DNA of 64,000 bases from Candidatus Margulisiibacteriota bacterium. Lineage in GTDB: Bacteria > Margulisbacteria > Riflemargulisbacteria > GWF2-39-127. The notes below the pieces were generated by a model. The model was not told where the DNA came from. It did no database searches and worked only from the letters and a program-made list of their open reading frames with translations. The DNA lies in contig QKMY01000045.1 of the NCBI GenBank assembly GCA_003242895.1, positions 124,001-188,000 on the forward strand. Direction: 5' to 3'. The translations under genes and the position numbers were made by a program. Positions 5,213 to 24,289 of the stretch are shown in pieces. Position 1 is the stretch's first letter. The number at the start of each line of letters is the position of its first letter.

Positions 5213-5313
5213 TTTTTTAGCCTATCTCTCGTTGCTTTGCAATGATAAAAATAAAGTAAAGGACTACAGGAAATCGAGAAGAAGTTTCTTAAGAAATCTA
5301 TACATAACGACAT

Positions 5314-5694: not shown

Positions 5695-6007
5695 ATATCT
5701 TTATTCCTCCAACCAAAGCATTGTATACTACTGAATACTGGTCATTCTTTTTTTCATTTATCTCTTTCGAAGTATATACTAATATGTCGAGAGGATAAGC
5801 TATCCCTCGCAATAAACTACGAACATAGCTCGAACGCAAAGGCAATTTCTGATCAGTTTCTTTTTCTATGAGGATATCTATGTCGCTCATTTCGGTCTCT
5901 TCCCCACGGGCAAACGAACCGAAAATATAAATAGCCCGAGGATCGTAACCGCTGACGACACGTTCTTTTATAAGATGATATAGATTTTCTTTAATTTTTT
6001 TATTCAT
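5660..6007 (-). CDS. MNT-type minimal nucleotidyltransferase
   Basis: The 115-residue product has the polymerase-beta-like nucleotidyltransferase signature GSFARGEETEMSDIDILIE (residues about 30-48), with the GS motif and the paired aspartates DID. A third carboxylate is probably the D in YPLDILVY. In studied HEPN/MNT pairs the nucleotidyltransferase is the antitoxin and AMPylates the HEPN partner. The downstream overlapping HEPN gene supports a functional pair. A dedicated promoter is not obvious. Pairs of this kind are typical of accessory DNA and move horizontally, which matches the surrounding gene remnants. Confidence 0.85.
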   Translation of the reverse strand: MNKKIKENLYHLIKERVVSGYDPRAIYIFGSFARGEETEMSDIDILIEKETDQKLPLRSSYVRSLLRGIAYPLDILVYTSKEINEKKNDQYSVVYNALVGGIKIYERQQSESSKE

Positions 6008-6124
6008 CGAACCAGTCCTTACCCATTATTATACCGGATACCGGATTATTTACAATTATTTTGACTTATTAATTATAATGGGTGAGTTATTGGGGTAACC
6101 AGAAAACTTTGAATGAGTAGCTTT

Positions 6125-7113
6125 CTACAAGAATAACATTCTATCAGGAATAGCCCAGATATTCGAGGCAAATTTGATGATTTCATCGCCAGGGTATACG
6201 AGTATCCCTCTGTCAGCGTGGTCAGGATGTTCGGCGATAAATTTCTTGAGTGGAGTTACGTCGGAAGCAAAAGGTTTTTTTGTGTTTTTCACCTCGATAG
6301 GTAGTAGTTTATTTCCGCTGTGCTTGATAATAAAGTCGATCTCAAATCCAGCAGATGTTCGATAAAAAAATAGTTCAGGAGGAATAGTCTTGGTCGATGA
6401 CCATTTTAGGAGTTCCGTAAATACCCAGGTTTCGTATACATTGCCAGATAATTCCTGATTATACTGTCCGGTTATGACATTTATAAGCCCTGTATCCAGG
6501 AAATATAGTTTAGGGCTTTTTATCATTCGTTTCGTATGGTTTTGATAATAGGGCATTAGGAGATGAACCTGAAAAGTAAGCTCAAATAGCTTCATATAAT
6601 TCTGGGCTGTTGTTACAGAAATTCCGCAGTCTCTGGCGACATCTGTATAAGAAAGGAGATTACCTGTTCGATGCGCAATAACATTTTGAAATCTTGTAAT
6701 ATTCTTTATATCTACAGAGGCTTTTATATCCCGTACATCTTTTTCCAGATATGTCTTCTTGTAGTTGCTAAGCCATCGATATTTAATTTCGCTGTTTTCT
6801 AAATTATGTACCGCCGGATAACCGCCCCACAATTGATGATTCGATAGTAGTTGCTTCTGATCTTGGATTTCCAGTGGTGAAAATGATAGAGGATACATCG
6901 TCCACAATCCGACTCTTCCGGCAAGGGACTCCGGTATTTTTTCCATCATCAAAATTTGAGATTGGTGATTGATATTCCTAATTCAGAAGGGAAAATCTGA
7001 GTTAGCAGTGTACTCTTTCCGACTTGCCGAGCGCCTGTTAAGGCTACATTTCTTTCAGAATTGTAGTATTTCTTTAATATTTTTGTTAGTTTTCGTTTAA
7101 ACATGCCATGCAT
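6125..7113 (-). pseudogene. AAA_14/DUF4143 ATPase, broken by an internal deletion and frame change
   Basis: Two pieces of one gene are visible. The 5' piece (7113 down to 6949, 54 codons from ATG 7113) has an intact Walker A, LTGARQVGKSTLL, and stops at TGA 6951-6949. The 3' piece (6952-6125, another frame) resumes at IPESLAGRVGLWTMYPLSF and contains YRTSAGFEIDFIIKHSGN and LLPIEVKN, the DUF4143 nuclease-like half. Intact family members are about 380-400 residues with roughly 100 residues between these parts, including Walker B. Those are missing, so an internal deletion joined the ends out of frame. The 3' piece might still be translated from TTG 6952 or the ATGs after it, but would lack ATPase activity. 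Confidence 0.8.
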
Positions 7114-7261
7114 TATAAAAAGAATGTTTTAAAAATGCTAGGTAATTACAAAAACAACCCAAACAATTAGAGACGAAAAGCTCAGAGCCCCTCCCATCAA
7201 TCTGAATTGTGCTAGCTGAGTTCCTCGGCGACCTGTATCGCCCAAATTTGATGACGTCTTT

Positions 7262-8263
7262 TCAATAGACTTGCTCAACCATTTTTTTCACTTCTCCGCA
7301 TGAAAGCGGTTCATAGCTGGCAGAAGAATAGCGCAGTCCAGGTTTAACCGGGAACGTGTTATTATAAGAATAATCGATGGTAGTATACGTTATTGCAGGC
7401 AATATAATAAACATTTCATCAGTCTCGAGAGCGCGCTGACTTTCTTCTGTGGTCAGCAGGTCCTCATCCAGGGTTTCGCCATGACGTAACCCGATATACG
7501 TTTTAGTTATATTTTTGTTATTACCAAAAATAGAAATCATAGCATCCGCCAGATTATCAACTTTGATAACAGGCATTTTCAAAAGGAATACTTCTCCACC
7601 ATGCATTGTTTGAGCAGCTTTTATAACCAGCTTTATTGCCTGCTCTTTTGTTATTACAAACCGTTGCATCTTGGGATCAGTTATGGTGATCGGTCCGCCT
7701 TTTTCGATCTGAGAGCGAAATAATGGAACCACAGAACCGCGTGATCCCAGCACATTGCCGAACCGGACGGATGCGAATCTGGTGCACCTATCAGGCCTGC
7801 GATGTGATGCTGTAGCTATAAGCTTTTCACCTAACAGTTTAGTCGCGCCCATAACATTACTGGGACTCGTTGCCTTATCCGTACTGATCGAGATTACTCT
7901 TTCAACGTTATTGGCTATCGCTGCCTCAATCACATTCTGTACGCCAACAACATTAGTTTTGACTGCCTCAAAAGGATTATACTCACACGATGGAACATGC
8001 TTCAGCGCGGCAGTATGAAATACGATATCAATATCTTCAAATGCCGCAGCCAACCGATCAGATTCTCTTACATCACCGATCAACCACCGCAACCGAGGAT
8101 CATCGTTAAGTTCATGACGCATCTCAAATTGTTTCGAATCGTCGCGGGAAAAAACCCTGACAACCTTGGGGTCGTATTTCAGGATTTCGGTGACAAGGGC
8201 TTTTCCGATAAACCCAGAACCCCCGGTAACCACTATCTTTTTGCCTTTTATTAGATCTTTCAT
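7262..8263 (-). CDS. CapD/PseB-like nucleotide-sugar 4,6-dehydratase (extended SDR)
   Basis: The 333-residue enzyme has the Rossmann motif GGSGFIG (16-22), HTAALKHVPSCEYNPFEAVK, and STDKATSPSNVMGATK. In the last, the catalytic tyrosine of ordinary SDRs is replaced by methionine (MxxxK), as in the CapD/PseB/FlaA1 family. FASVRFGNVLGSRGSVVP and ITDPKMQRF are family-typical. Relatives convert UDP-GlcNAc to a 4-keto-6-deoxy sugar, the first step of pseudaminate, legionaminate or bacillosamine synthesis. An SD (CAAGGAATATT) precedes ATG 8263. It heads downstream of the NeuB-NeuA-CgeB group on the same strand, so its product may feed the nonulosonic acid route, although the later aminotransferase and hydrolase genes are not in the window. 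Confidence 0.87.
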   Translation of the reverse strand: MKDLIKGKKIVVTGGSGFIGKALVTEILKYDPKVVRVFSRDDSKQFEMRHELNDDPRLRWLIGDVRESDRLAAAFEDIDIVFHTAALKHVPSCEYNPFEAVKTNVVGVQNVIEAAIANNVERVISISTDKATSPSNVMGATKLLGEKLIATASHRRPDRCTRFASVRFGNVLGSRGSVVPLFRSQIEKGGPITITDPKMQRFVITKEQAIKLVIKAAQTMHGGEVFLLKMPVIKVDNLADAMISIFGNNKNITKTYIGLRHGETLDEDLLTTEESQRALETDEMFIILPAITYTTIDYSYNNTFPVKPGLRYSSASYEPLSCGEVKKMVEQVY

Positions 8264-8379
8264 AATATTCCTTGATACTTGTCTAGCGAATATAAGCTTT
8301 TTTAATTATCGGTATCTATGTTACGCAAGTTAAATAATTATCTGCTTTTTGACAGATGAAATAGTACACTACTGGCACA

Positions 8380-9606
8380 CTAAAACACGCCTGCCTCCTG
8401 AAGCACAAGACTCATACTATCCAACCTTTTTCGCAGTGTATGATCCCGCAGCATTCTCTCATGTCCTGCCTGACCAATCCTCTCGCGTTCAGTATCGTGA
8501 CGAAGGTAATAGTCTGCGAGGATTTCCGCCTCTTCAATTGACTCGAAAGCGACAACCTCTTTCCCGATGTCAAAATACTGAGGCAACTCTGAGGTGAATT
8601 TTACCAGACACAAGGTTTTACTCGCAGCTATCTCAAAAATACGCATGGAAACCGCATCGATGAAAAGCCTGGTCATGGTCAATCCGATTTTTGCGCCTTT
8701 ATAGACATCTGACATCTGCTCACCCCATTGGCAGTACCCATGAAACGTCAAATTACCGGTGCAGGTTAAATTCTGCCACACACCTTCGTCTCCCCATAAA
8801 GAAAAACCATAGGGCGCGAGTCTGCGGATAATGGCCTCCCGGAACCTCCTGTCCGATTCATGGGATAAGGTATCAGCGATCATTTCGGATAAAAAACGTT
8901 TGTCTTTCGGCTGCCCGTCTGCAATTGCATTAATAATCTCATTTTCGTATAAGGGAGCTAAGTCCTCTATATTTAGTCCGTATTTATCATCTTCCAACAG
9001 CAATTTCGGCACAATATAATGACAAATATCCTGATTCTGTTTCTCAAATATCTCATCGAAAAAGTTGATCAGATTATTATCAATTATCTCGCGGGAGTTA
9101 GGATAATATTTATATAAAGCGTCAAGTAAATTGTGGTACTCGTTCCGGGGAGCATAGTTACCACCAACAAAAGCGATATTCGATTGATAGTTCTTAGTAG
9201 CAGGCTTGTTCATTACGAGCGATTTCTCATCAACAGCCAGCGGGAGCAAAAATACGTTTTTATAGCCTGCCTTACGAAACTTATCGTAATCCTCCTGACA
9301 ACACTCGAACACAAACGTATAATCAGAAACGAAATGTTTGCTAAAGAGCAATCTATTGACTACTGCATCCACTCCCCAAAACACATATGGAAGCTTATCT
9401 CTTTTCGCTATTTCTGCAAGGATAAACTGAAAATTAACAGAAAAAAGAATATCAGGCTTGCTTTTTTCGTATTCTGCGATGCACTCATTAACTGTTGTAA
9501 CGTAAACGATCTGATGTCCGATATCTTCAAGATAAAACCGAAGCCAATTAATATAGCTTAGTCCGGCTTCTTTTGCCAAAAATAATATGGTCATTTTTTT
9601 GCTCAT
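8380..9606 (-). CDS. CgeB-like glycosyltransferase (DUF3880 plus GT-B C-terminal domain)
   Basis: The 408-residue protein has the two halves of CgeB-type enzymes. The N-terminal DUF3880-like half contains DILFSVNFQFILAEI, YVFWGVDAVV, and NIAFVGGNYAPR. The C-terminal GT-B half contains FHGYCQWGEQMSDVYKGAKIGL, an acidic FEIAASKTLCLVKFTSELPQYF segment and repeated short helices. No transmembrane segment is visible. CgeB-family enzymes modify spore coat, flagellar or surface structures; flagellin and MAF loci often carry one. Here it lies between the 4,6-dehydratase and NeuA-HAD genes, consistent with transferring or extending a nonulosonate-containing glycan. The C-terminal motif order is clear, but donor and acceptor are unknown. 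Confidence 0.82.
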   Translation of the reverse strand: MSKKMTILFLAKEAGLSYINWLRFYLEDIGHQIVYVTTVNECIAEYEKSKPDILFSVNFQFILAEIAKRDKLPYVFWGVDAVVNRLLFSKHFVSDYTFVFECCQEDYDKFRKAGYKNVFLLPLAVDEKSLVMNKPATKNYQSNIAFVGGNYAPRNEYHNLLDALYKYYPNSREIIDNNLINFFDEIFEKQNQDICHYIVPKLLLEDDKYGLNIEDLAPLYENEIINAIADGQPKDKRFLSEMIADTLSHESDRRFREAIIRRLAPYGFSLWGDEGVWQNLTCTGNLTFHGYCQWGEQMSDVYKGAKIGLTMTRLFIDAVSMRIFEIAASKTLCLVKFTSELPQYFDIGKEVVAFESIEEAEILADYYLRHDTERERIGQAGHERMLRDHTLRKRLDSMSLVLQEAGVF

Positions 9607-9650
9607 AACTAGAGTACTTTCACTATTCTTCGAAAAAATTCATACCGTCA

Positions 9651-10787
9651 TTATTCTTTAAGGATGAGATCTGCTAATTCCCTCACAACCCCTTGCCCGC
9701 CATTCTTCGACAAGACAAGATCAGCCTGAGTTTTAATACTCTCGACAGCATCAGCCGGACAAACACTGATGCCCACACACTGAAAGGCGGACAGATCATT
9801 GAGATCATCGCCGATATATGCAATCGCAGCCCGATCAATACCTGTCAGCAGGGCAAGTTCGCAGATCACTGCACCTTTATCCTGAATCCCTTTATAAACG
9901 AAATCAGCTTTAATTTTTTGTGCCCGGTAGTCGGTTATCGTACTGGATTCACCTGTGATTATTGCGGTTTTGATACCTCTTTCACGCAATAGTTCGATAC
10001 CCTTCCCGTCCCTCGTATTGAATTTCTTCAGTTCTTTCCCGGTTTCATCATAGTACATGCCGCTATCGGTAAGTACTCCGTCGACATCAACAGCCACCAG
10101 CTTGACGCCTTTAAGGCTATCATGGAGCGTTGCTTCCTGTCTCAACTTAATCAATTTTTCGACAGCGTGCCAGTCAGAAAGTTCGTCAATTTCGATCGCA
10201 GTATTTTCCGGCATTTCGTAGATGCCGATCCTGCCTCCCAGACGACACTGTGATTGGGTCAGGACGCTTCGTTTCGTGATGTAAAAAGCGCCATTTTCCA
10301 TGATCACGCCGTTGTAGTCCTGTCTGCGAGGACGGTTCAAGGGATCATAGCTCAAAGGAGTCCCGGCGATATCCCAGTAAAATCTTTTTTGATTAACCCC
10401 GGTTACTAAAGAATCCAGATTTTCTGCGTTAAATTTTTTGTAGGCATTAACGAAATCTAGCGGTTCAGTTAACGGAGACGTTGCCTGGATTGTAACGATG
10501 ACATCAAAATCCACGATGTCGGCAATATGCAGCATGACTGATTCTGTGCTGGAGGTGTCGGTTGCCAATTCCGCCGGTCGCATGATGATCTCTACGTCCA
10601 GATTCAAAGATCGTACGACATCGGCGATCTCCTGTGAATCCGTTGATACGACCACTTTATCAAAAATCCCGGAATTGTATGCTGATTCGAGGGTCCAGGC
10701 ACACAGAGGTTTCCCGGCCATCAGTTTTATATTTTTCTTAGGAATGCTTTTTGAGCCGCCGCGAAGAGGGATAAGGGCTATTATCAT
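9651..10787 (-). CDS. neuA: CMP-nonulosonate cytidylyltransferase fused to a KdsC-like HAD phosphatase
   Basis: Residues 1-215 form a NeuA-type cytidylyltransferase: PLRGGSKSIPKKNIKLMAGKPL is the CTP-binding loop, with VVSTDSQEIADV and TIQATSPLT following. Residues 220-378 form a HAD phosphatase of the KdsC type, with VAVDVDGVLTDSG (nucleophile Asp), TGESSTITDYRAQ, KGIQDKG and GDDLNDLSAF. The pairing suggests that one polypeptide dephosphorylates a nonulosonate 9-phosphate and activates it as the CMP-sugar, as in animal CMP-sialate synthetases that carry a C-terminal HAD domain. The first codons overlap the neuB stop by 4 bases (ATGA), indicating translational coupling. The product should be the donor for the neighbouring MAF enzymes. 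Which nonulosonate is made cannot be decided here. Confidence 0.9.
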   Translation of the reverse strand: MIIALIPLRGGSKSIPKKNIKLMAGKPLCAWTLESAYNSGIFDKVVVSTDSQEIADVVRSLNLDVEIIMRPAELATDTSSTESVMLHIADIVDFDVIVTIQATSPLTEPLDFVNAYKKFNAENLDSLVTGVNQKRFYWDIAGTPLSYDPLNRPRRQDYNGVIMENGAFYITKRSVLTQSQCRLGGRIGIYEMPENTAIEIDELSDWHAVEKLIKLRQEATLHDSLKGVKLVAVDVDGVLTDSGMYYDETGKELKKFNTRDGKGIELLRERGIKTAIITGESSTITDYRAQKIKADFVYKGIQDKGAVICELALLTGIDRAAIAYIGDDLNDLSAFQCVGISVCPADAVESIKTQADLVLSKNGGQGVVRELADLILKE

Positions 10788-11659
10788 TTGATATCGTATT
10801 CTCCTATTTTTCGTTTCAGTTTTTTCCGTTGTACCAGCTCGATATCTAAGATCTCTTTTGGTTTGTATTTCATGGTTTTGTCAACGGCCCGAAGATCTCT
10901 CGTTAGCCTGCGAAGACCGTCCGGCTCGAGACTGGCAGCGTGATCAGTACCTTTCCAGGTCCTATCAAGAGTAAAATGACGTTCAAAATATTCAGCCCCC
11001 AAGACCATTGCACCGATATCAACAGAAATACCCAAATGATGCCCGGAGAAGCCAATTGCCTTTACTTTTTTTCCATAGGCTTGTTTTAATCGCGTTATTT
11101 CCATAAGACAAACATCGTCCATCGGGACCGGATAGCCGGAAACACAGTGATAAATTACCACGTCCTTAGTCCTATTAAACCTATCGAAAAACGAAATAAT
11201 ACGTTCTTCTTCTTTTTGGGTTGTCATACCAAAGGATATATGAATAATCCCCGGGAAATTAATTGCAATATATTCCATCATCTCAAAATCCAGATTAGCA
11301 GCCGACGGGATTTTCAGCATGTTGGGCTGCAAAGAAATAATGTCTCTGGCGGAATCAATATCCCACACGGAAGAGGAATAGCCGATCCCCCAGTCCTTGC
11401 ACCATATCTGCAGCTGCTTGTGCTGTTCAAGGTCGAATTCTAAAAACTCCCGATGTTCGCCATAGGTCGCACCAAACGAATGCATTGGATTAGGATGCGG
11501 AGTATTATACTCTGCCTCGGTAAGGAGTGCGCGGGGATTACGTTTCTGGAATTTGACGACATCTGCTTTGCAGAATAGAGCCGCCATTTTGATCATCTCA
11601 TGGGCAATTTCCATGTCCCCTTTATGATTACATCCTATTTCAGCGATTATTACCGGCAT
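10784..11659 (-). CDS. neuB: NeuB-family nonulosonate synthase without SAF domain
   Basis: NeuB-type enzymes condense PEP with an N-acyl hexosamine (or its phosphate) to form sialic-type nine-carbon acids. The TIM barrel is clear: IIAEIGCNHKGD, VVKFQKRNPRALLT, YSSSVWDIDSA, LKIPSAANLDFEMM, YHCVSGYPVP, GFSGHHLGISVDIGAMVLGA (in parts), FERHFTLDRTWKGTDHAASL. Those segments contain the metal-binding His/Glu and PEP-binding Lys positions. At 291 residues it ends just after the barrel and lacks the about 60-residue C-terminal SAF (antifreeze-like) domain of classical NeuB, LegI and PseI. Barrel-only homologues exist. A good SD (AAAGGGGACC) precedes ATG 11659. It forms an operon with the overlapping NeuA-HAD gene. 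Confidence 0.9.
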   Translation of the reverse strand: MPVIIAEIGCNHKGDMEIAHEMIKMAALFCKADVVKFQKRNPRALLTEAEYNTPHPNPMHSFGATYGEHREFLEFDLEQHKQLQIWCKDWGIGYSSSVWDIDSARDIISLQPNMLKIPSAANLDFEMMEYIAINFPGIIHISFGMTTQKEEERIISFFDRFNRTKDVVIYHCVSGYPVPMDDVCLMEITRLKQAYGKKVKAIGFSGHHLGISVDIGAMVLGAEYFERHFTLDRTWKGTDHAASLEPDGLRRLTRDLRAVDKTMKYKPKEILDIELVQRKKLKRKIGEYDIK

Positions 11660-11717: not shown

Positions 11718-13643
11718 TTACTTTACTAATTCATGGTGTCCGAGCGCACTTTGCAGGTTACCTTTAAGCAGGCTGCAGGCTCTTTCCAATGACAGGAAGA
11801 GACGAAGAATGTTGATATATTTTTTCCGGTATCTTTTTTCTTCACTCAGATTATGGTAATTCTGAAAATTAACTTTGCTCGCCCTGATTATTGCTGCAGG
11901 TATATGCATATCCAGCAGCCTCATGAATGAAGCTGAATTACTGTACGACCGGGCTATTTCGTTATGCAGGAAATCGTATTTTTCTCTCAAGTGTCTTCGT
12001 GCGATCTCTTCACGGCAATACTGTATCCACTGGTCAAAAGCCTGGCAGCTCTCAATACACTTATTGACATGTGCCGTTGCTAGTTCCAGTTCTTTTGGAG
12101 TTCTTTCGCAATAACAATTAAAGATTTCCTTAAAGATGACCTCGTTATTAAAATAATGAACGATCTCGGAAAAAGATACTCTCTGCGCGCCATCGATCCG
12201 GGCGCCTTTTTCGGTAAGGTTAAAAACCGGAGCTTTCATATGAGAACAATAGCCGCCAAGACTTGTAATAAAAAATCGAAAATCTTCCCAGGTTGGAACT
12301 GGCCGGCTATCATAATCAGGAACATAAAACACCTCTTTTTCGACAATCTGATGAGCACTCGTCTCAATGTTGCCATCAGCCGTTGAGCTGCCAGGCTTGC
12401 GAGTCCTGGAATACGTTTTTCCGTCTCTTTCAATAATATCGATAGTATTCGTGACCGAAGATCCGCCGGCATGATCTGTACTAGCCAGGCTCAAGTCCTG
12501 CCCGACCAATATGACCGGATCAGCACCCAATTTGTCAGCGAGCATTAAAGTAAGCATCGCGACAGTGTTGATATCGTTAAAAGTTGCTGCATCCGGAAAG
12601 GCTAATTTCTCGAAAACAAAGTCATACAAGCCATCTCCGGCAACCACAAATCTAATCGGTCCCTGCCAGCAATCAAGCAACCCGGAATAGGTATTACTAC
12701 TCGTCACCAGGAGGATATCTTTTGTCAAATGAGGGTTCTCTTCGAAATATCTATATTTAGTCGGCGGCGGGTCGGTCGCTGTCACGATATCAGGAACAAT
12801 CCCGTACTCGATAAGCACTTTGAACGCCGTATCTGCGACAATAAAAACAGCTTTTTCCCGGATCCTCTTCAAATCAGGGAGATAATTATTCAGGGACGGT
12901 CCGGCTGCCACACACACAAACGGCAGATTACGAAATTTGCCAAACAAGCCATCAACATTAGGCTCGATAAATAAATGCCTAATATTTTTGAACCGGTTCT
13001 CGATCATCATAGTACCGCGGACCATAGCCGTTTTATCAATAACCGATCTCTCGACAACAAAATCTTGAACAACCCTGCTGATTGTCCCTGCGTCCTCCAA
13101 ATAATATTTCGTGACCGTATTCCAGTTAATCATGATCCGATTTCCCAAATTGAGCCACTGTGCACCGCGCAAAGCCCTGAGCTTATCAAGCGTCAATTCC
13201 CCCACGATAAAGCTGATATTCTTGTGTAAAATAACGCCTGTAGTATCTTGATAATGAAGCATTAGCTTGAACAAAGTTTTGTCCGGCTCAATAATAATAA
13301 GTTCCTTTAACCAGGTTATTTTGTCCAGTAACGGTAAGAGATGATATCCAAACCCGAAACCCACAATGATACCAAACACTGCAGAGTTGAGTTCGCAGGA
13401 ATGCCGCTGCGAAAATAGTGCCGCAAAATCTTCGGCTTCTTTTTGCGGATCACCTTGGTCGTGGTAATAAAAATCTTGGTTGCCTACCTTTATCTTACAA
13501 TTCGGAAGGCCACTGTCTGACAAACAATATGTATAATCTTCCGGTATAACTAATTGCACTATTTCCTGCGCCAGCTTTTCGTTCCGGGCTTTCAAGGCTT
13601 CCAGGTTTTTTTGGTAGATTGGCTTATCTGGTAGTTCTGTCAT
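11718..13643 (-). CDS. MAF/DUF115 glycosyltransferase, paralogue 2
   Basis: This is a 641-residue MAF protein with the same three-part layout as its paralogues. The N-terminal Rossmann-like domain has GFGFGYHLLPLLDK and ELIIIEPDKTLF. The DUF115 core has AAGPSLNNYLPDL, FIVADTAFKVLIEYGIVPDIVTATDP (in parts, about 244-290) and ILVGQDLSLASTDHAGGSS. The C-terminal helical domain contains KGARIDGAQRVSFSEI. It is the last gene upstream of neuB (59 bases apart, same strand), so donor synthesis and transfer may be co-expressed. It lacks the insertion seen in paralogue 1. Divergence among paralogues is strong in the C-terminal third, which could reflect different flagellin substrates. Confidence 0.9.
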   Translation of the reverse strand: MTELPDKPIYQKNLEALKARNEKLAQEIVQLVIPEDYTYCLSDSGLPNCKIKVGNQDFYYHDQGDPQKEAEDFAALFSQRHSCELNSAVFGIIVGFGFGYHLLPLLDKITWLKELIIIEPDKTLFKLMLHYQDTTGVILHKNISFIVGELTLDKLRALRGAQWLNLGNRIMINWNTVTKYYLEDAGTISRVVQDFVVERSVIDKTAMVRGTMMIENRFKNIRHLFIEPNVDGLFGKFRNLPFVCVAAGPSLNNYLPDLKRIREKAVFIVADTAFKVLIEYGIVPDIVTATDPPPTKYRYFEENPHLTKDILLVTSSNTYSGLLDCWQGPIRFVVAGDGLYDFVFEKLAFPDAATFNDINTVAMLTLMLADKLGADPVILVGQDLSLASTDHAGGSSVTNTIDIIERDGKTYSRTRKPGSSTADGNIETSAHQIVEKEVFYVPDYDSRPVPTWEDFRFFITSLGGYCSHMKAPVFNLTEKGARIDGAQRVSFSEIVHYFNNEVIFKEIFNCYCERTPKELELATAHVNKCIESCQAFDQWIQYCREEIARRHLREKYDFLHNEIARSYSNSASFMRLLDMHIPAAIIRASKVNFQNYHNLSEEKRYRKKYINILRLFLSLERACSLLKGNLQSALGHHELVK

Positions 13644-13908: not shown

Positions 13909-15294
13909 ATGGCACCCAAGGTTTCGATTATCGTCAGGTCAAGAAACGAAGAACGCTGGATCACTCCTTGCCTGAAGTCAGTTTTCAACCAGACATTTAA
14001 GGATTTTGAAGTAATCCTTGTTGATAATAAAAGTACGGACAAGACCGTCGAAAAAGCCAAACAATTCGAGGTGACCGTTGTCGAAATCGACAAATACCTT
14101 CCGGGAAAAGCGATCAACGTCGGCATAGAAGCCTCCTGCGGCAGCTATATTGCAATACTATCCTCTCATTGTATTCCGACCAACGAATTCTGGCTCGAAA
14201 ACCTCGTCAGGAACCTCGATGAAGATACCAACCAGGAAATCGCGGGAGTCTATGGCAGACAAGAGCCGCTCGCCTTCACCCATGATCTTGATAAACGCGA
14301 TCTCCTGATAACCTTTGGGTTAGACCGGCGCGTCCAGATTAAAGACAGTTTTTTTCATAATGCCAATAGCCTTGTCAGAAAGTCTGTTGTCGAGACGATC
14401 CCTTTCGACGACACCGCAACTAATATCGAAGACCGGTTATGGGGCAAAGAAATAATTAACCATGGCTACAAAATAGTCTATGAACCTCAGGCCAGTGTCT
14501 ATCACCACCACGGCATTCATCAATCAGGAGACCCGCAACGCGCCCATAATATAGTCAAGATCATGGAATCGATGAACGAAAAAGAATTTTCTTCGAAAAA
14601 AATCAATCATCTTGATCTCAATATCATGGGTATTATTACTGCTAAAGGCGATCCCTTTATGTTCAATAATAAACCGTTGATCGAGTATACGATAAAGAGC
14701 GCCCAGCAATCAAAGCTATTAAATAATCTTATTGTTTCTACTGATAGCGTTAAAACCAAAGAAATAGCGCAAGCACACGGGGTGAATGTCCCGTTCCTTC
14801 GGCCTCAGAAACTATCTAATGACGATATCGGTGTCGAGGCGGTCCTTCAATACACCTTAGACCAACTGGAAAAGAGTAATATTTTTCCGGATATTATTGT
14901 TTATCTTTCTATTATCCAACCGTTCCGTCCGGTATTCCTGATCGATGAACTCATTAGTATGATGCTGAAAAAAGGGTTTGACTCGGTCCTTCCCGGCTAT
15001 CCTTCCTATAAGTCCTGCTGGATAAAAAAAGAAGGCAGCTTAGTGCGGGTGGACGAAGGCTTCGTTGCCAGTTCGCAAAAACATCCGATACATATCGGCT
15101 ATGCTGGACTTGCCTGCGTTACTTATGCCGAGTTCATCCGAAAAGGCCATTTACTGGGAAATAACGTCGGTATTTCCGAAATTGTCGATTTTTACTCGAC
15201 CATAGAGCTTAAAACCCCGGCAAGTTTCGAACTTGCGGAAAAAGCGTTCCCCTATTGGTGGGCTAAGCAAGAGGAGTACTCAGTCCAACGATGA
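13909..15294 (+). CDS. GT2 glycosyltransferase fused to a degenerate CMP-sugar synthetase domain
   Basis: Residues 1-230 are a family 2 glycosyltransferase (VSIIVRSRNEERWI, ILVDNKSTDKTVEKA, LSSHCIPTNEFW, FHNANSLVRKS, NIEDRLWGKEII). Residues about 240-455 align along their length with the CMP-sugar synthetase encoded at 17857 (IVSTDSVKTKEIAQAHGVNV, VPFLRPQKL, IVYLSIIQPFRPVFLI, GYPSYKSCWIKKEG). The CTP-binding signature is lost, however: where the paralogue has ILARGGSKGLPGKN this one reads IITAKGDPFMFNNKP. The second domain is therefore probably catalytically dead and may bind or channel the CMP-sugar made by the paralogue. The stop overlaps the next start by 4 bases, so it is coupled to the isomerase gene. 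The fusion has no named equivalent that I recognise. Confidence 0.85.
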   Translation: MAPKVSIIVRSRNEERWITPCLKSVFNQTFKDFEVILVDNKSTDKTVEKAKQFEVTVVEIDKYLPGKAINVGIEASCGSYIAILSSHCIPTNEFWLENLVRNLDEDTNQEIAGVYGRQEPLAFTHDLDKRDLLITFGLDRRVQIKDSFFHNANSLVRKSVVETIPFDDTATNIEDRLWGKEIINHGYKIVYEPQASVYHHHGIHQSGDPQRAHNIVKIMESMNEKEFSSKKINHLDLNIMGIITAKGDPFMFNNKPLIEYTIKSAQQSKLLNNLIVSTDSVKTKEIAQAHGVNVPFLRPQKLSNDDIGVEAVLQYTLDQLEKSNIFPDIIVYLSIIQPFRPVFLIDELISMMLKKGFDSVLPGYPSYKSCWIKKEGSLVRVDEGFVASSQKHPIHIGYAGLACVTYAEFIRKGHLLGNNVGISEIVDFYSTIELKTPASFELAEKAFPYWWAKQEEYSVQR

Positions 15295-16097
15295 AATTAT
15301 CATATGTTGTCTCCACCCATGAGACTAGCTTCACCTCAGTCGCCAGCGGAAACTTAGAGAACAAGGTCCGAATAATCGCTTCATTAGGATATGATGGCAT
15401 AGAACTCGCTATCCGTGACCCGGGAATGCTCGATGTTTCGTCAATCAGAACGCTTCTCAAAAAGTGCGGATTACAACTAGCAGCGATCGGTACCGGACAG
15501 GCTTATGTTGATGAAGGCCTGTTCTTTTCCTCGACGGACGCGGGGATAACCAAACAGGCTATCGAACGGATTAAAGGGCATATTGATCTGGCAGCGCAGT
15601 TCGAAAGCCAGGTTATTGTCGGGTTGCTACGAGGCGAAGGAATCAAAAACAAATTCTTTAGCGCTGACCAGTTCAAGAAAAGCCTGAGAGAAATCTGCGC
15701 TTATGCAGAAAAGAAAAATACCCGGATAGTGATTGAGCCGATCAACCGGTACGAAACTTCGCTTATTAATTGCGTCCGGGAAGCGCTTGATATCATCCAA
15801 GAGATTAACAGTGCTTCACTTTATATCCTGGCAGATACCTTCCATATGAATATCGAAGAACAGCAGCTGCCATCTACGCTTACCATTGCCGCGCCGAAGC
15901 TGGCACATGTCCATATTGCCGATAGCGATCGCTGGTATCCCGGACACGGGCATATTGATTTCGAAGCAATCATAACAACACTGAAGCAGATTAATTATCA
16001 AGGCTTTCTTTCAGGAGAAATGCTGCCAAAACCGGATTTCGAGACAGCGGCAAAAAAGACAATTCAGTATATGAAAGACAAAATAACACGCTATTAG
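15291..16097 (+). CDS. TIM-barrel sugar isomerase/epimerase (IolE/IolI/AP-endonuclease-2 fold)
   Basis: The 268-residue protein has the xylose-isomerase-like TIM barrel of the sugar isomerase/epimerase superfamily: GYDGIELAIRDP, LQLAAIGTGQAYVDEG, VIVGLLRGEG, RIVIEPINRYETS (metal-binding Glu), LADTFHMNIEE (metal-binding Asp and His), KLAHVHIADSDRWYPGHGHIDF (in parts; His and Asp/His ligands) and FLSGEMLPKPD. Such enzymes use a divalent metal to epimerise or isomerise keto sugars, ketoinosose or hydroxypyruvate. ATG 15291 overlaps the previous stop. Next to an IolB-like cupin and a DAHP-synthase-like aldolase, the natural inference is that it shapes the sugar precursor for condensation with PEP. 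The exact substrate is not readable. Confidence 0.85.
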   Translation: MKLSYVVSTHETSFTSVASGNLENKVRIIASLGYDGIELAIRDPGMLDVSSIRTLLKKCGLQLAAIGTGQAYVDEGLFFSSTDAGITKQAIERIKGHIDLAAQFESQVIVGLLRGEGIKNKFFSADQFKKSLREICAYAEKKNTRIVIEPINRYETSLINCVREALDIIQEINSASLYILADTFHMNIEEQQLPSTLTIAAPKLAHVHIADSDRWYPGHGHIDFEAIITTLKQINYQGFLSGEMLPKPDFETAAKKTIQYMKDKITRY

Positions 16098-16112
16098 AGA
16101 AAGGAAACAATT

Positions 16113-16904
16113 ATGACCGGATTCTCATCACAACTTAGGATTAAAGAAGGTCGAAATGACGCCAAGTGGGCTGATACAATGTTTCACTACATCAAAAAAT
16201 TCTCGGTATTTTCTCTGACGGATAACCAGTCAATTGAGTTAACGACCGCAAAAGATGAAGAAGCCGGAGTAGTTATCCTTGAAGGTGTGTGCGATATTGT
16301 CCTCGAAGGAAAAGAACACAAAAACCTCGGCACAAGAAAAAGCGTTTTCGAAGGAATACCTACCGCCGTTTACATTCCCGCCGGCACAAACCTCAAAGTT
16401 ACGGGAACAGAAGTGACCTTCGCTCTCTGTGTCGGAAAATGCTCACAGAAAACTCACTCAGCAATAATTAGACCGGAAGACATTAAAGTCATGCAGGCAG
16501 GAAAAGACAACTGGCATCGCGAAGTCCGAATGATCATCGGCCCGGATTCTCCTGCTCAAAATCTGTTAATCGGAGAAACCCTCAATCCTCCGGGGAACTG
16601 GTCCGGAACTCCTCCACACAAACATGAACACAATAACCTTCCCGGCGAATCACTGCATGAAGAACTCTATTACTTCAAAACTGACAAACCTCAAGGATAT
16701 GGAATAGAAAAGTTTTACTCTCCTGAACATAATATCGATATGCTCATTCCAATCAAAGACGGAACAGTTACTTACATGCCCTACGGATATCACCAGATCG
16801 TCGCCGCACCCGGATACACACTCTATTATCTATTCTTTTTATCCGGTGAGGGGAAAAAACTTGTGGGCATACCTGACAAGGACCATGCCTGGATAACCAA
16901 GTAA
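16113..16904 (+). CDS. IolB-like cupin isomerase (5-deoxy-glucuronate isomerase family)
   Basis: Over 263 residues the protein matches the double-cupin IolB/KduI family closely: IGETLNPPGNWSGTPPHKHE, ESLHEELYYFKTDKPQGYGI, YSPEHNIDMLI, YMPYGYHQIVAAPGYTLYY and FLSGEG. The HKHEHN stretch with the Glu of HEELYYF and the later His of GYHQIV form the metal site. IolB converts 5-deoxy-glucuronate to 2-deoxy-5-keto-gluconate in inositol breakdown. No other inositol-catabolism gene is nearby; the neighbours are a sugar isomerase and PEP-condensing and CMP-activating enzymes. The reaction is probably an aldose-ketose isomerisation of a uronate or deoxy sugar, but the physiological substrate is likely different. 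An AGAAAGGAA ribosome site precedes ATG 16113. Confidence 0.85.
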   Translation: MTGFSSQLRIKEGRNDAKWADTMFHYIKKFSVFSLTDNQSIELTTAKDEEAGVVILEGVCDIVLEGKEHKNLGTRKSVFEGIPTAVYIPAGTNLKVTGTEVTFALCVGKCSQKTHSAIIRPEDIKVMQAGKDNWHREVRMIIGPDSPAQNLLIGETLNPPGNWSGTPPHKHEHNNLPGESLHEELYYFKTDKPQGYGIEKFYSPEHNIDMLIPIKDGTVTYMPYGYHQIVAAPGYTLYYLFFLSGEGKKLVGIPDKDHAWITK

Positions 16905-16929
16905 ATAATACGCTAAAGGAGCTTACACC

Positions 16930-17856
16930 ATGAAAGATATATCAGCTAATGATCTACAAAACAATATCCCTCTCATTACCAGAAAAGATTACCGGAGAAT
17001 CATCACAACCGGTTCGTACACCTACAATCCGGAAAAAATAATGATTATTGCCGGCCCGTGTACGGTTGAGAGCAAATCCCAGATTATGGAGATAGCAAAA
17101 GCTGTCAGGGAAGCTGGGGCAACTATGCTGCGCGGCGGCATTTTTAAACCGCTCACCTTCCCATACGGCGACCCTCTGGGAAAAAGCGATGCCGATTGCG
17201 ACGGACAGGACCTGGACCGCAAGACTATTATGTCGAAAAAAGAGCTATTTGCCCGGGCAGAAACCCGGCTCGCTTATTTGAAAGAAGCCGGAGATACCTA
17301 CCATTTACCGGTAGTCTCCGAAATCCTCTATGCTGAGACGGCCGCAATGATGTCCAAGTATGTCGACGTATTCCAAATCGGATACCGGCACATGTTCAAC
17401 ATGGACCTTATCGAAGCATTAGCAAATGTTAACAAACCGATCATCCTTAAACGCCATTACGGAGAAAGCCTGCGCTCGCTCCTCGGCGTAGCAGAACACT
17501 TCGAAGCCCGAGGCAAACACGATATAATGTTCTGCGAACGAGGAGTAACTTCGCCGCATACCCACAATGTTGAATCACGGGCAATTATTGATATACAAGC
17601 GATCCCTGCACTGAACGAATACGCTCCGACGGTGCCGGTCCTGGTCGACCCAAGCCATTCTACATTTAAGCGCAGCTATGTTGCGCCGGTAAGCAGGGCA
17701 GCCATCGCAGCAGGAGCAAACGGGCTACTTATCGAAGTCCACAACAACCCGGAAAAAGCATGGGTTGATCCGCTCCAGGCACTTGGATTTAACGACTTTG
17801 AAAAGCTTGTCAAAGAAATCGATCTCATTGGGAAAGTACTCGGGAGGTCTGTCTAA
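16930..17856 (+). CDS. DAHP-synthase-like PEP-dependent aldolase with altered aldose site
   Basis: The 308-residue TIM barrel belongs to the type I-beta DAHP synthase/Kdo8P synthase superfamily: IIAGPCTVESKSQI, MLRGGIFKP, PVVSEILYAETAAMM, VFQIGYRHMFNMDLIEAL, KPIILKRHYGES, ILVDPSHSTFKRSY-like VLVDPSHSTFKRSY, and GLLIEVHNNPEKAWVDPLQAL (in parts). PEP- and metal-binding positions are kept. The erythrose-4-phosphate signature KPR(S/T)S of true DAHP synthases reads KPLTF here, and a stretch of about 25 residues (around DADCDGQDLD) is inserted after it. Aromatic-pathway function is thus doubtful. In this operon, with a CMP-sugar synthetase starting the next base after its stop, it more likely condenses PEP with another aldose to form a 3-deoxy-ulosonic acid. 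An AAGGAG SD precedes ATG 16930. Confidence 0.85.
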   Translation: MKDISANDLQNNIPLITRKDYRRIITTGSYTYNPEKIMIIAGPCTVESKSQIMEIAKAVREAGATMLRGGIFKPLTFPYGDPLGKSDADCDGQDLDRKTIMSKKELFARAETRLAYLKEAGDTYHLPVVSEILYAETAAMMSKYVDVFQIGYRHMFNMDLIEALANVNKPIILKRHYGESLRSLLGVAEHFEARGKHDIMFCERGVTSPHTHNVESRAIIDIQAIPALNEYAPTVPVLVDPSHSTFKRSYVAPVSRAAIAAGANGLLIEVHNNPEKAWVDPLQALGFNDFEKLVKEIDLIGKVLGRSV

Positions 17857-18564
17857 ATGACAAAGAAAAACGTAGCGGCAATTATTCTGGCCCGCGGCGG
17901 GTCCAAAGGTCTGCCGGGGAAAAACATTAAGCCCCTACTCGGACACCCGCTCATGGAATACACCATCAAACCTGCCAGACAAGTACGGCTCATTGACCGG
18001 GTTATTGTTTCGACTGATGATACGGAAATAGCTGCTGTCGCCAAAAGCCTGGGAGCTGAAGTGCCATTTATCCGCCCGGCAGAAGTCGCACAGGACAACA
18101 CCACCTCGGAAGCGTCCATTAAGCATGCACTTCTTTGGTTACAGAAAAACGAAAACTACCGGGTTGATATTCTTGTTTACTTACAGATCCCTGACCTGTT
18201 CAAACAACCTGAATTAATTGAGCAGGCAGTGCGGGCCCTGATAGACGATGATTCCATCGATTCGGCGTTTGTCGGGTATCCTGACAAAAAGAATTACTGG
18301 AAAAAAGAAGAAGGAACCTATACCTGCCTTACGCCAGGAAAACACATGTCACGCCAATTGAAACCACCGGTCTTGCGCGAAGATACCGGTCTGGGCTGTG
18401 CGACACGGGCACGACTACTCATAGAAGAAGAACGGCGTTTGGGTGATAAAGTTGTCATAATCCCCAATAACGAACTGCTGATCGATATCCACGATGACTT
18501 TGATTTCTGGTTCGCGGAAAAAGTCTTACAGGAAAGACCGGAGTTTCAGAAATATAGATTATAG
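17857..18564 (+). CDS. CMP-sugar (ulosonate) cytidylyltransferase
   Basis: The 235-residue NeuA/KdsB-like enzyme has an intact CTP-binding loop, IILARGGSKGLPGKNIKPL (residues 9-27), followed by RVIVSTDDTEIAAVAKSLGA and EVPFIRPAEVAQD. The usual TSPxR segment after the third strand is changed to LQIPDLFKQPELI, so its sugar pocket differs from NeuA at 9651. GYPDKKNYWKKEEG and IPNNELLIDIHDDFDF are shared in pattern with the degenerate domain of the fusion at 13909. Its ATG abuts the stop of the DAHP-synthase-like gene. This order mirrors Kdo and nonulosonate pathways, where synthase and CMP-transferase act consecutively. It should deliver a CMP-ulosonate to a glycosyltransferase such as the fusion protein or a MAF. 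Confidence 0.88.
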   Translation: MTKKNVAAIILARGGSKGLPGKNIKPLLGHPLMEYTIKPARQVRLIDRVIVSTDDTEIAAVAKSLGAEVPFIRPAEVAQDNTTSEASIKHALLWLQKNENYRVDILVYLQIPDLFKQPELIEQAVRALIDDDSIDSAFVGYPDKKNYWKKEEGTYTCLTPGKHMSRQLKPPVLREDTGLGCATRARLLIEEERRLGDKVVIIPNNELLIDIHDDFDFWFAEKVLQERPEFQKYRL

Positions 18565-19615: not shown

Positions 19616-20968
19616 ATGAACCAAATCCAGAACATTTATGAAGACTATTGTAATGGGCATTATGACAAAGCTATCAAAGCCATTCTACAAATACATAGAA
19701 ATGAGCAATCAACGAGTTTCCAGTTAGACAGTCTCCTGATTCAAAGCTATATCAAAGGAAACTACACTGACAAGGCTGTTTATCACGGGCTGAAGCTCTA
19801 TCAATTGCTGCATAATATTGATTCAAATAACCAGTTTTTTTCCAATTATTACGATTTCCTAAAACAACAGAATGTTGTACAGGCAGGACTAACTATCCTG
19901 CATGAACTAAAAGAACTAAAAGAAATTAAGCCGGATTTCTCCCGGATATACAAAGGTATCAATGAAAAAATATATTCTGAATGCATCGGCAAAAGAATAA
20001 TAGTCTACCCGCTAATCTGGAGTATAGCGTTCGGGGACATGATCGTCGTTCACCAGTTTATCAAACAAAAAAAACTGGAAAATCCATCTGTTCCGGTCAT
20101 ATTAATCATGCCGCTTAACAGGCCGGAGCTAAAAGAACTTGCCTCGCTCAATACCGCTATCGACTATGTAATCGATATCACGCTGCTGGAAGCAGAAAAG
20201 GACAGGCTTCACTCGCTCCAGCTTAGGAACAAGGAATTCCACAATATTTCTGTCCAGGAATATATTATTGATTGTATTTTACAAGACCTGATAAGCAACA
20301 GATTTGAGATTACTATCGAAAAGACACGTTATTTCCCTTTGCTTGATAACTATCGCTATAATGCAGGATGGCGCATCTGGGAAAAACGAGCAGAATTGTA
20401 TTTATCAGAAAAAAAAGAACTTCCCAAGCTAACCGAGCAAAAATATACCAAAAAGAAAAAAATCACGATTCATTTAAGGGAAGCAAATTACGGAGAAGAT
20501 GCCCGTAACGTCACTCCGGAACAAGGGCAATTATTTGTCAATCTTCTCAAAGAACATTACCCTGATTATGAGATAGTCCGGCTCGGTGATAAATCAATGA
20601 CTCCACTTCTGAATTGCCGAAACGCCTGTCATGAGAACTTTTCGCTCAACGATCAACTCCGAGAGGTCCAGGAAAGCGCACTCTTTATCGGGTCTCACTC
20701 TGCCCCGCAGCATTTTGCAGTAGCGATAAGCAATACGCCAATCATTTGCATGAATTACGGGCTGCAAGAAACCTGCAAGTCCTGGAATGATCACATCCCC
20801 AAAATGAGCCTTGAACCGGTTGGAGCGCAAGTAAAAGCAGTTCTCTACAGTAAAATGTTTGATATACATGAGAATGAGTTAATCCCACGGTTAAATCAGA
20901 AAGCACACTCCGTAGTCCCGACATTGCTCGAAGATGTTATAGCACTTACCCATCAAATCATTACATAA
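19616..20968 (+). CDS. TPR-containing GT-B glycosyltransferase-like protein
   Basis: The 450-residue protein has an N-terminal helical region with TPR-like pairs (IYEDYCNGHYDKAIKAIL, SYIKGNYTDKAVYHGLKLYQ; residues 5-80). A two-domain region follows that looks like a heptosyltransferase/GT9-type GT-B fold: IVYPLIWSIAFGDMIVVHQF (about 125-145), the linker KKKITIHLREANYGEDARN, VTPEQGQLFVNLLKEHYPDY, and the donor-site-like SALFIGSHSAPQHFAVAISN with PIICMNYG. No membrane segment is visible. It is 34 bases from the epimerase gene and in the same operon. The glycosyltransferase call rests on fold pattern rather than a strong family signature, so the donor is unknown. Confidence 0.65.
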   Translation: MNQIQNIYEDYCNGHYDKAIKAILQIHRNEQSTSFQLDSLLIQSYIKGNYTDKAVYHGLKLYQLLHNIDSNNQFFSNYYDFLKQQNVVQAGLTILHELKELKEIKPDFSRIYKGINEKIYSECIGKRIIVYPLIWSIAFGDMIVVHQFIKQKKLENPSVPVILIMPLNRPELKELASLNTAIDYVIDITLLEAEKDRLHSLQLRNKEFHNISVQEYIIDCILQDLISNRFEITIEKTRYFPLLDNYRYNAGWRIWEKRAELYLSEKKELPKLTEQKYTKKKKITIHLREANYGEDARNVTPEQGQLFVNLLKEHYPDYEIVRLGDKSMTPLLNCRNACHENFSLNDQLREVQESALFIGSHSAPQHFAVAISNTPIICMNYGLQETCKSWNDHIPKMSLEPVGAQVKAVLYSKMFDIHENELIPRLNQKAHSVVPTLLEDVIALTHQIIT

Positions 20969-22312: not shown

Positions 22313-24205
22313 CTAAAAATCTCTGTTCGCTTCAATTATCAAGCTCCTCAAACCTACAAGACCGCGCCTTAGCGCGACGATAGTCTTTAACGAAAGCACA
22401 TACCGGCTTTTTGTGCCCGCTATAGTATCAGAACTATCAGTATATTGTACGGTGATATAGTTATTGATCTCTTTATGTATATAGAGATTAAGCATAGCCA
22501 TTAATTCAGGGAACTCCCGGTTAAGGGAAGTAATCATATTTTGGATAAAGCTATCCTTGTTAGCGATTGGCTGCCTGATTATTGTTCTGAAATGCTTCAA
22601 TTGGGCATTAATTCTTTCCTCTAATAATTGACTATCCTTTGTTAACCGGTCCAGCATAGCAACGACATACTCTCTATTGTGCAAGGTCATTGTTCCCTGT
22701 CCGCTCAAAATATGTTCTACTCTGACGAACGGGTCAAAACATCCGGTAATTTCAGCAAATGTCGTACGTGGAACTCCGGCTATTTTAGCCCCGGTAGCCG
22801 TGATATTAAAGAACTTTTTCCGGGTGTTCCTGACAAAAAGTTCGATGCTTTTTCTAAACCCGTCGAAAACAGGTATTGTCCGGACTAAATTATCGTCATA
22901 ATCCGGAATGTATATAATCCGTTTGTTATCGTAGACGATATCTTTCTTCTTTTTCTGTTGTATAACCTTAATATGATCCTCGCCATTTTCGCTAACAATC
23001 TCGATATTTCTGCAGTTAGCTGACCCGGCAGCGTGAGTGACCTCGGTGAATCGCAGGTCCTGCCCTACCATAACAATCGGATCACCACCTAACCTGTCGG
23101 CTAGTTTTAATGAGAGCATTCCGACGGTCGGGATTCCTGTGAGCACTTCCGTGCCCTTTTCAACCAAATGATCCAGGATCGTATTCATAGTATGATTAAG
23201 GCTGCCATTCACTACGAGCCGTATAGGCCCCTGCCAGCATTTGTTGATCCCAGAATACGTATCCATCGTAGTAACCAGAAGGATATCTTTCGTCAGATGA
23301 GCGTTTTTCTCAATGAATCCAAATTTATTGCAAAACCGGGGCTCAAGCGCCGTTACAATGTCAGGCTTGATCCCGTGTTCCATGAGAACATTAAATGCCG
23401 AATCCGCGGCAATGAAAATAGCTTTTTCGCAGACCAGTTTCAAGTCCTCCAGATAATCCGTAAGACTTGGCCCGGAGGCGATACAGACAATAGGGAGATC
23501 AGCTAATCTGCCGTACATTTCGTTAATCAGAGGTTTATCAAATAAGTGCACGAGATTATAAAAGTTATTCCGTATGACATCTTTGCTTTTCAAGCCTAGC
23601 GTTGCGGATAAAGAATCTTTCTCTTCGATATACTCAGTAATCAACTGAACGGACTTCTGCACAATATCGGGGAAAAGCACTGTCGTAACCTGCGGATGAG
23701 GAATAATGATCCCCTGGGCGTAATACAAACTGCCACTGGCATCAAGCTGCTTAACCTTTAGTCTATTGAGCTCTCCGATAACCAGGTTTATTTTTTTCGC
23801 CCGGAACATGTCACTCATATCAATAGAAGTAAGAGCAATTTTAAACAGGACCGGGGCAGGTTCAATGATGATTATTTCCCGGAACCAGTCAAACCGCCGG
23901 ATCAGCTCTCGTGCGTAATATCCCATACCGAACCCGACAATGATACCCAGCCGTGCTTTCTCGACCTCTGAGACACGTTCATTATAGAATTGTTCGATGT
24001 ACTTCGCGGCTTCGCTGTCCGGAGCGTACGGACTATGACACCAATGCTCTTTACCCGCTCTTCTGATCTTTACATTGGGCAACCCGTTCTTCGACGCAGT
24101 ACATTCGTATTCATCACTAATCCGGATATTATCTATTACCTCGGCCAGACTAGTGTCCATTTCGGCTATAATCTTGATATTTCTGTCATATATTGCGCTA
24201 CTCAT
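22313..24205 (-). CDS. MAF/DUF115 glycosyltransferase, paralogue 3
   Basis: The MAF layout is complete: GFGMGYYARELIRR and EIIIIEPAPVLF, then the DUF115 core CIASGPSLTDYLEDL, FIAADSAFNVLMEHGIKPDIVTALEP (in parts) and VMVGQDLRFTEVTHAAGSAN, and the C-terminal TGAKIAGVPRTTF domain. An ATG at 24238 is in frame, but ATG 24205 has an AAGG stretch at good spacing and its MSSAIYDRN aligns with the start of paralogue 4, so 24205 is preferred. It is closest to paralogue 4 (30596), sharing for example AAGSAN/HAAGSANA and FCNK. It converges on the ulosonate operon, separated by only 31 bases, and both sets probably serve flagellin or surface glycan assembly. Confidence 0.9.
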   Translation of the reverse strand: MSSAIYDRNIKIIAEMDTSLAEVIDNIRISDEYECTASKNGLPNVKIRRAGKEHWCHSPYAPDSEAAKYIEQFYNERVSEVEKARLGIIVGFGMGYYARELIRRFDWFREIIIIEPAPVLFKIALTSIDMSDMFRAKKINLVIGELNRLKVKQLDASGSLYYAQGIIIPHPQVTTVLFPDIVQKSVQLITEYIEEKDSLSATLGLKSKDVIRNNFYNLVHLFDKPLINEMYGRLADLPIVCIASGPSLTDYLEDLKLVCEKAIFIAADSAFNVLMEHGIKPDIVTALEPRFCNKFGFIEKNAHLTKDILLVTTMDTYSGINKCWQGPIRLVVNGSLNHTMNTILDHLVEKGTEVLTGIPTVGMLSLKLADRLGGDPIVMVGQDLRFTEVTHAAGSANCRNIEIVSENGEDHIKVIQQKKKKDIVYDNKRIIYIPDYDDNLVRTIPVFDGFRKSIELFVRNTRKKFFNITATGAKIAGVPRTTFAEITGCFDPFVRVEHILSGQGTMTLHNREYVVAMLDRLTKDSQLLEERINAQLKHFRTIIRQPIANKDSFIQNMITSLNREFPELMAMLNLYIHKEINNYITVQYTDSSDTIAGTKSRYVLSLKTIVALRRGLVGLRSLIIEANRDF

Positions 24206-24289
24206 ACTATCGGCTACCTTAAAAAACTTTATCTTCATATATCATAACAAGATACCTGTTTTATAACAAAACTTTAATCCGCTTTTTAG

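Follow-up and report, generated by a model that had tools for sequence, protein, structure and literature searches.

A DAHP-synthase-like gene cassette as a candidate route to a CMP-activated 3-deoxy-2-ulosonic acid

What would a DAHP-synthase-like protein make when its gene is packed between those of two isomerase-type enzymes and a CMP-sugar synthetase? The question is raised by five genes on the plus strand of the window, the 64,000-nucleotide stretch (G000:C45:124001-188000) of a 3.35 Mb genome that was analyzed here. The first, g1 (13909-15294), encodes a GT2 glycosyltransferase of the GT-A type (PF00535, 2.9e-28) that is fused to a degenerate CMP-sugar-synthetase domain, matched by a fragment of PF02348. 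It is followed by g2 (15291-16097), an IolO-type ketose/keto-acid epimerase with a TIM barrel (NF041099, 330.6 bits; cut-off 300), and by g3 (16113-16904), a cupin of the IolB/KduI keto-aldo isomerase type (TIGR04378, 221 bits; cut-off 205). The DAHP-synthase-like g4 (16930-17856; PF00793, 7.5e-44) is the proposed 3-deoxy-ulosonate synthase, and g5 (17857-18564) encodes a CMP-sugar synthetase with an intact P-loop (PF02348 (CTP_transf_3), 8.9e-23). All five open reading frames were recovered where the original prediction had placed them, with the spacings it gave: according to the ORF calls, a 4-base overlap, gaps of 15 and 25 bases, and a zero gap between g4 and g5. Promoter and terminator scans returned signal at chance level.

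The separate NeuB/NeuA pair that had been predicted outside the cassette was also found, on the minus strand (9651-11659). It consists of a NeuB-type nonulosonate synthase (10784-11659; PF03102, 1.6e-64) and a NeuA fused to a KdsC/KDN-9-phosphatase-like HAD domain (9651-10787). A MAF flagellin glycosyltransferase (11718-13643, minus strand; PF01973, 2.1e-32) is a divergent neighbour only. Farther downstream in the window, at a distance of 24 kb, a block of ribosomal and housekeeping genes includes one for chorismate synthase, which is unrelated to the cassette.

We propose, at a probability of about 0.7, that the five genes form a dedicated route to a CMP-activated 3-deoxy-2-ulosonic acid for a surface glycan. 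In the chemistry that we infer, g2 and g3 would convert a ketose or keto-hexonate to an unphosphorylated aldose or aldouronate. Subsequently g4, a relative of DAHP synthase re-tuned to that aldehyde, would condense it with PEP. The product would then be activated with CTP by g5 and the resulting CMP-sugar used by g1, which would transfer the activated acid.

Distribution and linkage of the cassette

Relatives of g4 were collected with a probe alignment that included the distant phage-borne homologue L019 and was limited to the blocks presumed to be specific to the family; artificial decoys, which only steered the scan, make up its extra rows. One scan of 84,980 species yielded 74 loci, which together with the window and L019 make up the set of 76. 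The scan demanded either GGxFKPLTF or QIGYRHMF, and the uniformity of the family at those positions is thereby overstated.

Besides the window, g4 is thus carried at 75 loci across at least ten bacterial phyla, one phage contig included. The carriers belong to the Omnitrophota, Elusimicrobiota, several CPR groups, Myxococcota, Sulfurovum, Acidobacteriota, Chloroflexota, Actinomycetota, SAR324 and many Alphaproteobacteria, among them Pelagibacter ubique HTCC9565, and also include Prochlorococcus marinus MIT 9302. Cultured carriers are Thalassobaculum litoreum DSM 18839, T. fulvum KCTC 42651, Nisaea nitritireducens DSM 19540 and a Roseibium sp. The phage contig L019 (IMG/VR, 38.6 kb) encodes an endolysin and a DnaB-like helicase. 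Four of the five viral matches fell outside the g4 family: L020 and L022 are ordinary KdsA, and L021 and L023 score alike at 24% identity. A scan of viral contigs with a single g4 sequence gave zero matches, and a search of plasmid and phage records with g4 returned ordinary DAHPS and KdsA only. Among 73 other genomes of the window's own phylum, no relative was closer to g4 than ordinary DAHP synthase; the best match, which covers two thirds of the protein, is 43% identical, and KPRTSPY is found in the proteins that matched.

A profile search that made no motif demand was run on 289 Alphaproteobacteria. It returned four true g4 proteins at 418 bits or more, with ordinary DAHPS at 278. Three of them (G085, G086 and G218) lie in genomes that the scan had found; the fourth, G202, reads FKPLSFPY, which is outside both scan patterns, and its genome has the complete order g5, g1, Gfo, g4, AroE. 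A further profile match, G315, was rejected as a canonical DAHPS carrying KPRTS. In the alphaproteobacterial sample g4 is present in 4 genomes, g1 in 6 and both in 3, one of these three being the chosen centre; G150 has g1 and no g4, which speaks against the proposal.

The CMP-sugar synthetase g5 was found in 65/76 loci and the GT2 protein g1 in 62/76. Most loci without one of them lie on short contigs or are split: in Azospirillum halopraeferens the GT2 gene lies 18 kb off on the same contig, and in the L052 genome g1 is on a separate contig. The genes of the Gfo/AroE type described below lie at a median distance of 4 bp from g4, IolB at 6 bp and IolO at 804 bp, with IolB in between. Gene order and linkage are therefore conserved in distant phyla, as the original prediction had proposed to check, and the scattered, unlinked homologues that would have spoken against it were not what was found. 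The five-gene set is not a chance neighbourhood, since the same genes are found together in other phyla. None of the 75 other loci contains a KdsC-type phosphatase, which points to an unphosphorylated aldehyde and product; the NeuA-HAD fusion of the window is the sole such domain near any carrier cassette.

The proposed synthase g4

The window's g4 scores below the DAHP synthase models NF006421 (261 bits, cut-off 335) and TIGR01361 (228 bits, cut-off 268), and likewise below the models for NeuB (19.5 bits against 22.1) and KdsA (97.6 bits against 242). In the tree the 76 family members form a single clade, separate from housekeeping DAHPS, with a support of 100. The AF2 model (pLDDT 91) is closest in fold to the DAHP synthases 1zco and 1vs1, and next to KDO8PS.

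With the type I-beta DAHP synthases (AroF; 1zco, 1vs1, 1rzm), g4 shares the barrel and the PEP, metal and catalytic residues. Measured against nine housekeeping DAHPS from the window's phylum, the family keeps K73, T76, R153, K174, R204, H243 and D280, and E269 is retained as Glu or sometimes Asp. However, g4 lacks the ACT domain and the Arg of the KPRT motif, and stands apart by its separate clade, its linkage to CMP-sugar genes and a series of fixed differences: R75L, E182R, R210H, 212H, G246F, S279V and G281P, with a few rows deviating at 279 and 281. The KPRT Arg, which we take to bind the phosphate of erythrose-4-phosphate (E4P) in DAHP synthase, is Leu (KPLT) in 76/76 g4 proteins, a residue for which the scan had partly selected. 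The motif-free recovery of G202 confirms the loss of the Arg independently. One lost Arg would still fall short of proving that the aldehyde substrate is unphosphorylated.

Where the DAHPS have a metal-binding GPC, many g4 members have GPN. The metal ligand C44 is Cys in the window's g4 and Asn in 53/68 g4 of the Gfo/AroE type; this is presumably the same Cys/Asn switch that divides metal-dependent from metal-free KDO8P synthases. The source genome has an ordinary type I-beta DAHPS with KPRTSPYSFQG on contig C69 and a second, different DAHPS on C66. No KdsA was seen there in the PF00793 search, which covers KdsA too, because the matches comprise only g4 and the two DAHPS. On these grounds g4 is very unlikely to be the housekeeping DAHP synthase.

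Proposed activation, transfer and supply of the sugar

The P-loop of g5 is conserved (R13/G15/S16/K22/N23). Its best NCBIfam match is PseF, at 124 bits against a cut-off of 205.7, and it is also below the KdsB equivalog cut-off. Oddly, g5 reads QIPDLF at a place where T is the usual third residue, a point that speaks against the proposal. With this P-loop and the PEP and metal residues of g4 intact in one locus, the predicted pairing of a PEP synthase with a CMP-transferase, distinct from NeuB/NeuA, is supported.

In the GT2 domain of g1, S[AG]H.P takes the place of the DxD motif of NDP-sugar GT2 enzymes in 51/51 aligned proteins (S-S-H in two rows), while ED and W are retained. A GT2 free of DxD would suit a donor without diphosphate, as a CMP-sugar needs no metal for a diphosphate; we know of no GT2 with a CMP donor. 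The fusion described in the original prediction is present, with the CMP-synthetase half degenerate: the P-loop is missing in 51/51 aligned relatives. The AF2 model of g1 (pLDDT 92) has a GT-A fold, and its C-terminal domain matches NeuA at a TMt of about 0.8. L041 and L043 encode the GT2, g5 and the dead CMP-synthetase in three separate genes that lie side by side; the dead domain is thus retained even when it is unfused. Apparent long g5 proteins in Thalassobaculum were discarded as stop-to-stop artefacts; the real layout is one of separate genes. NeuA enzymes are dimers, and the dead domain probably pairs with g5 or holds the CMP-sugar.

The proposal that the isomerase and the cupin would feed the pathway is supported; the genes of both recur near g4 in other carriers. 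IolO and IolB genes are located beside g4 in the window and in L025, L026, L027, L029, L030 and L034, and the phage contig carries IolB with a weak IolO-like remnant. The other module abuts g4 as well. It consists of a Gfo/Idh/MocA dehydrogenase (closest to WlbA and IolG) and an AroE-like protein that is closest to shikimate dehydrogenases and also to 5-ketofructose reductase. IolO/IolB occurs at 8 loci and Gfo/AroE at 65, and both together at none (hypergeometric 9e-9, uncorrected for kinship); a weak 43-bit Gfo relative in L030 comes from a different cluster. The first reading of the locus had overlooked two points: the IolO/IolB pair can be exchanged for a second module, and the CMP-synthetase part of the fusion is dead. 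In the g4 tree the IolO/IolB types are nested within the Gfo/AroE types; Gfo/AroE would be the ancestral module and IolO/IolB an alternative. Four changes of module are needed on this tree, and strongly supported branches force only one of them. The g4 of L028 (Staskawiczbacteria) is 74% identical to that of the window, yet it is accompanied by the Gfo/AroE module.

All four adapter enzymes retain their catalytic residues. The closest solved structure to g2 is TM0416 (2zvr, 2e-62), and 6/6 metal and catalytic residues are kept in g2, as are 8/8 of the metal His/Glu residues in g3. Both proteins pass the NCBIfam cut-offs of the enzymes they resemble, IolB and those of the Thermotoga inositol/5-keto-L-gluconate route (IolO TM0416). 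In contrast to that route, g2 and g3 stand beside sugar activation rather than catabolism, and IolD was above cut-off in 0/7 IolB carriers, so the cassette does not serve inositol catabolism.

In most other carriers the dehydrogenase and the AroE-like reductase would replace g2 and g3. A single net reaction that could explain both modules is the C3 inversion of a hexose or hexuronate, either by a ketose C3-epimerase with a keto-aldo isomerase or by C3 oxidation followed by reduction. That both modules perform this inversion is a tentative idea, with the odds somewhat against it, and a C3-inverted hexose or hexuronate as the substrate of g4 is a guess. Uronates are substrates of IolO, IolB and WlbA-type enzymes. 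A firm uronate substrate was weighed and dropped: of the two serines for the shikimate carboxylate, one is missing in the AroE-like reductases (Ala in 54/56), which weakens the uronate reading. In what an account of iminosugar cascades says of them, shikimate dehydrogenases are also promiscuous toward other sugar-like substrates (PMC9881201).

Alternatives and significance

Could g4 be a spare DAHP synthase or an aminoshikimate-like enzyme, and could the AroE-like protein be a second enzyme of the shikimate type? Its sequence family, fold and catalytic residues agree with this, an AroE homologue is paired with g4 in most carriers, and the Pelagibacter g4 even exceeds the TIGR01361 cut-off (280 against 268). 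The aminoshikimate (AHBA) pathway, moreover, likewise joins DAHPS-like, Gfo/Idh and AroE-like proteins (an aminoDAHP synthase, RifL and RifI). However, it requires an AroB-type cyclase and has no CMP-sugar step. AroB was found in 0/7 CPR (Patescibacteria) carriers, and in 7/7 of them g4 is the sole PF00793 protein; these are draft MAGs, in which single absences are weak and the joint absence in 7/7 is not. Of the other carriers tested, 11/11 have AroB, and 11/11 have a PF00793 protein besides g4. The g4 pathway is therefore not the shikimate pathway. The lost KPRT Arg and the carriers without AroB also disfavour the synthesis of DAHP from E4P, named at the outset as the result that would speak against the proposal. 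With the IolB-type loci having no nearby AroE-like gene, the linkage to CMP-synthetase and GT2 genes, and ordinary DAHPS elsewhere in the source genome, we regard a spare or AHBA-type enzyme as highly improbable. A flagellin-specific sugar transferred by the adjacent MAF proteins is improbable too. Five MAF genes are present in the source genome, and in the window there are MAF genes to either side of the cassette, but 0/20 other carriers examined have one, and the carriers include Pelagibacter and CPR bacteria, for which we know of no flagella. The expected co-occurrence with MAF genes thus fails and leaves a flagellin-specific role unsupported; the flagellin link is at most local to the source genome. 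Of the two transferases originally put forward, the fusion is the one that recurs with g4, and g1 is more likely than MAF to transfer the activated acid.

A new route to a known acid (Kdn, Kdo, 8-epi or another known nonulosonate), in which the enzymes but not the sugar would be new, seems rather unlikely to us. The logic of PEP synthase, CMP transferase and transferase is that of the known ulosonic acids, NeuB/KdsA and NeuA/KdsB likewise combine PEP condensation and CMP activation in one operon, and g5 is closest to PseF/NeuA-type enzymes. Yet the cassette's synthase is of a different lineage, outside KdsA and NeuB, and comes without a KdsC phosphatase; with NeuB and NeuA near the cassette in the window, L063, L078 and L087, a second route would seem redundant. 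Somewhat less doubtful, although still on the unlikely side, is a promiscuous g4, supplied with different aldehydes by the two modules, so that the carriers would make a family of acids. This would suit the covariation of Gfo with AroE (r 0.75), when each covaries with g4 at only 0.38-0.42, and the variation of active-site positions 152/154/156 by g4 subclade (YRHMF against S/T/A-RNMQ). On the other hand, modules are swapped among g4 proteins that are 67-74% identical and retain the same residues.

The dedicated route to a CMP-activated 3-deoxy acid remains our preferred reading. The cassette is real, widespread and apparently undescribed: a literature search of open-licence papers found no description of it, although the theme of a PEP synthase followed by a CMP-transferase is itself known. 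That the sugar has not been described before has about an even chance. A more specific reading falls slightly short of even odds. According to it, g4 would be an independent ulosonate-synthase lineage besides KdsA and NeuB, derived from DAHP synthase, with two swappable supply modules and a GT2 that is free of the metal motif and partnered by a dead CMP-synthetase. The CMP-activated 3-deoxy acid that it serves would be one not described so far, perhaps nonulosonic or nonulosaric and inverted at C3, and the carriers would span at least ten phyla, with CPR, Pelagibacter and Prochlorococcus among them.

Annotation pipelines would label these proteins as DAHP synthase and shikimate dehydrogenase, when in Pelagibacter, Prochlorococcus and CPR they are probably surface-sugar enzymes. 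The cultured carriers allow the cassette to be tested directly. If the reading is true, it would offer a GT2 with a possible CMP donor, and a test case for a single synthase that is supplied by two enzyme pairs unrelated to each other. It would also correct aromatic-pathway predictions in abundant marine bacteria and CPR, and add one to the known bacterial activated sugars.

Nonulosonate genes and MAF glycosyltransferases in the window

The window also encodes an unusual nonulosonate pair (9651-11659, minus strand), in which a short NeuB of 291 aa is accompanied by a fusion protein combining NeuA with an HAD domain of KDN-9-phosphatase-like type. Four MAF-type glycosyltransferases are found within less than 30 kb (2966-5212, 11718-13643, 22313-24238 and 30596-32458), and a fifth is encoded elsewhere in the same genome.

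Phage-borne relatives

One putative surface-sugar cassette is phage-borne. On the phage-like contig L019 (IMGVR_UViG_3300002460_000088), the region 3091-9744 encodes the proposed PEP-condensing synthase g4, an IolB, a CMP-synthetase, a cytidylyltransferase/GT2 fusion with the domains in reversed order, and a 36% homologue of the window protein at 19616-20968. The phage contigs L020 (4107-5099) and L022 (1818-2810) each carry an ordinary KdsA (Kdo-8-phosphate synthase).

Variation among cellular carriers

Adjacent to or near the GT2 fusion gene g1, a protein cluster recurs at six loci (L029, L031, L033, L034, L078 and L090); the protein from L029 shows a match to the DHDPS/NanA family. A conserved protein of ~315 aa is encoded at most about 2 kb downstream of the CMP-sugar synthetase g5 in L025, L027 and L028, the latter two copies having no Pfam match.

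The g4 homologue of Pelagibacter ubique HTCC9565 (L098, 9968-10861) scores above the cut-off of TIGR01361, the NCBIfam DAHP-synthase model, and will therefore be miscalled by automatic annotation. At the Pelagibacteraceae loci L056, L063 and L072, the g5 protein reaches ~590 aa. In L063 the additional half resembles a SAM methyltransferase, a hint of sugar methylation at these loci.

In the alphaproteobacterial genome G150, g1 is present at full length (contig C64, locus L114), and a profile search of this genome found no g4. The fusion may thus serve another acid.
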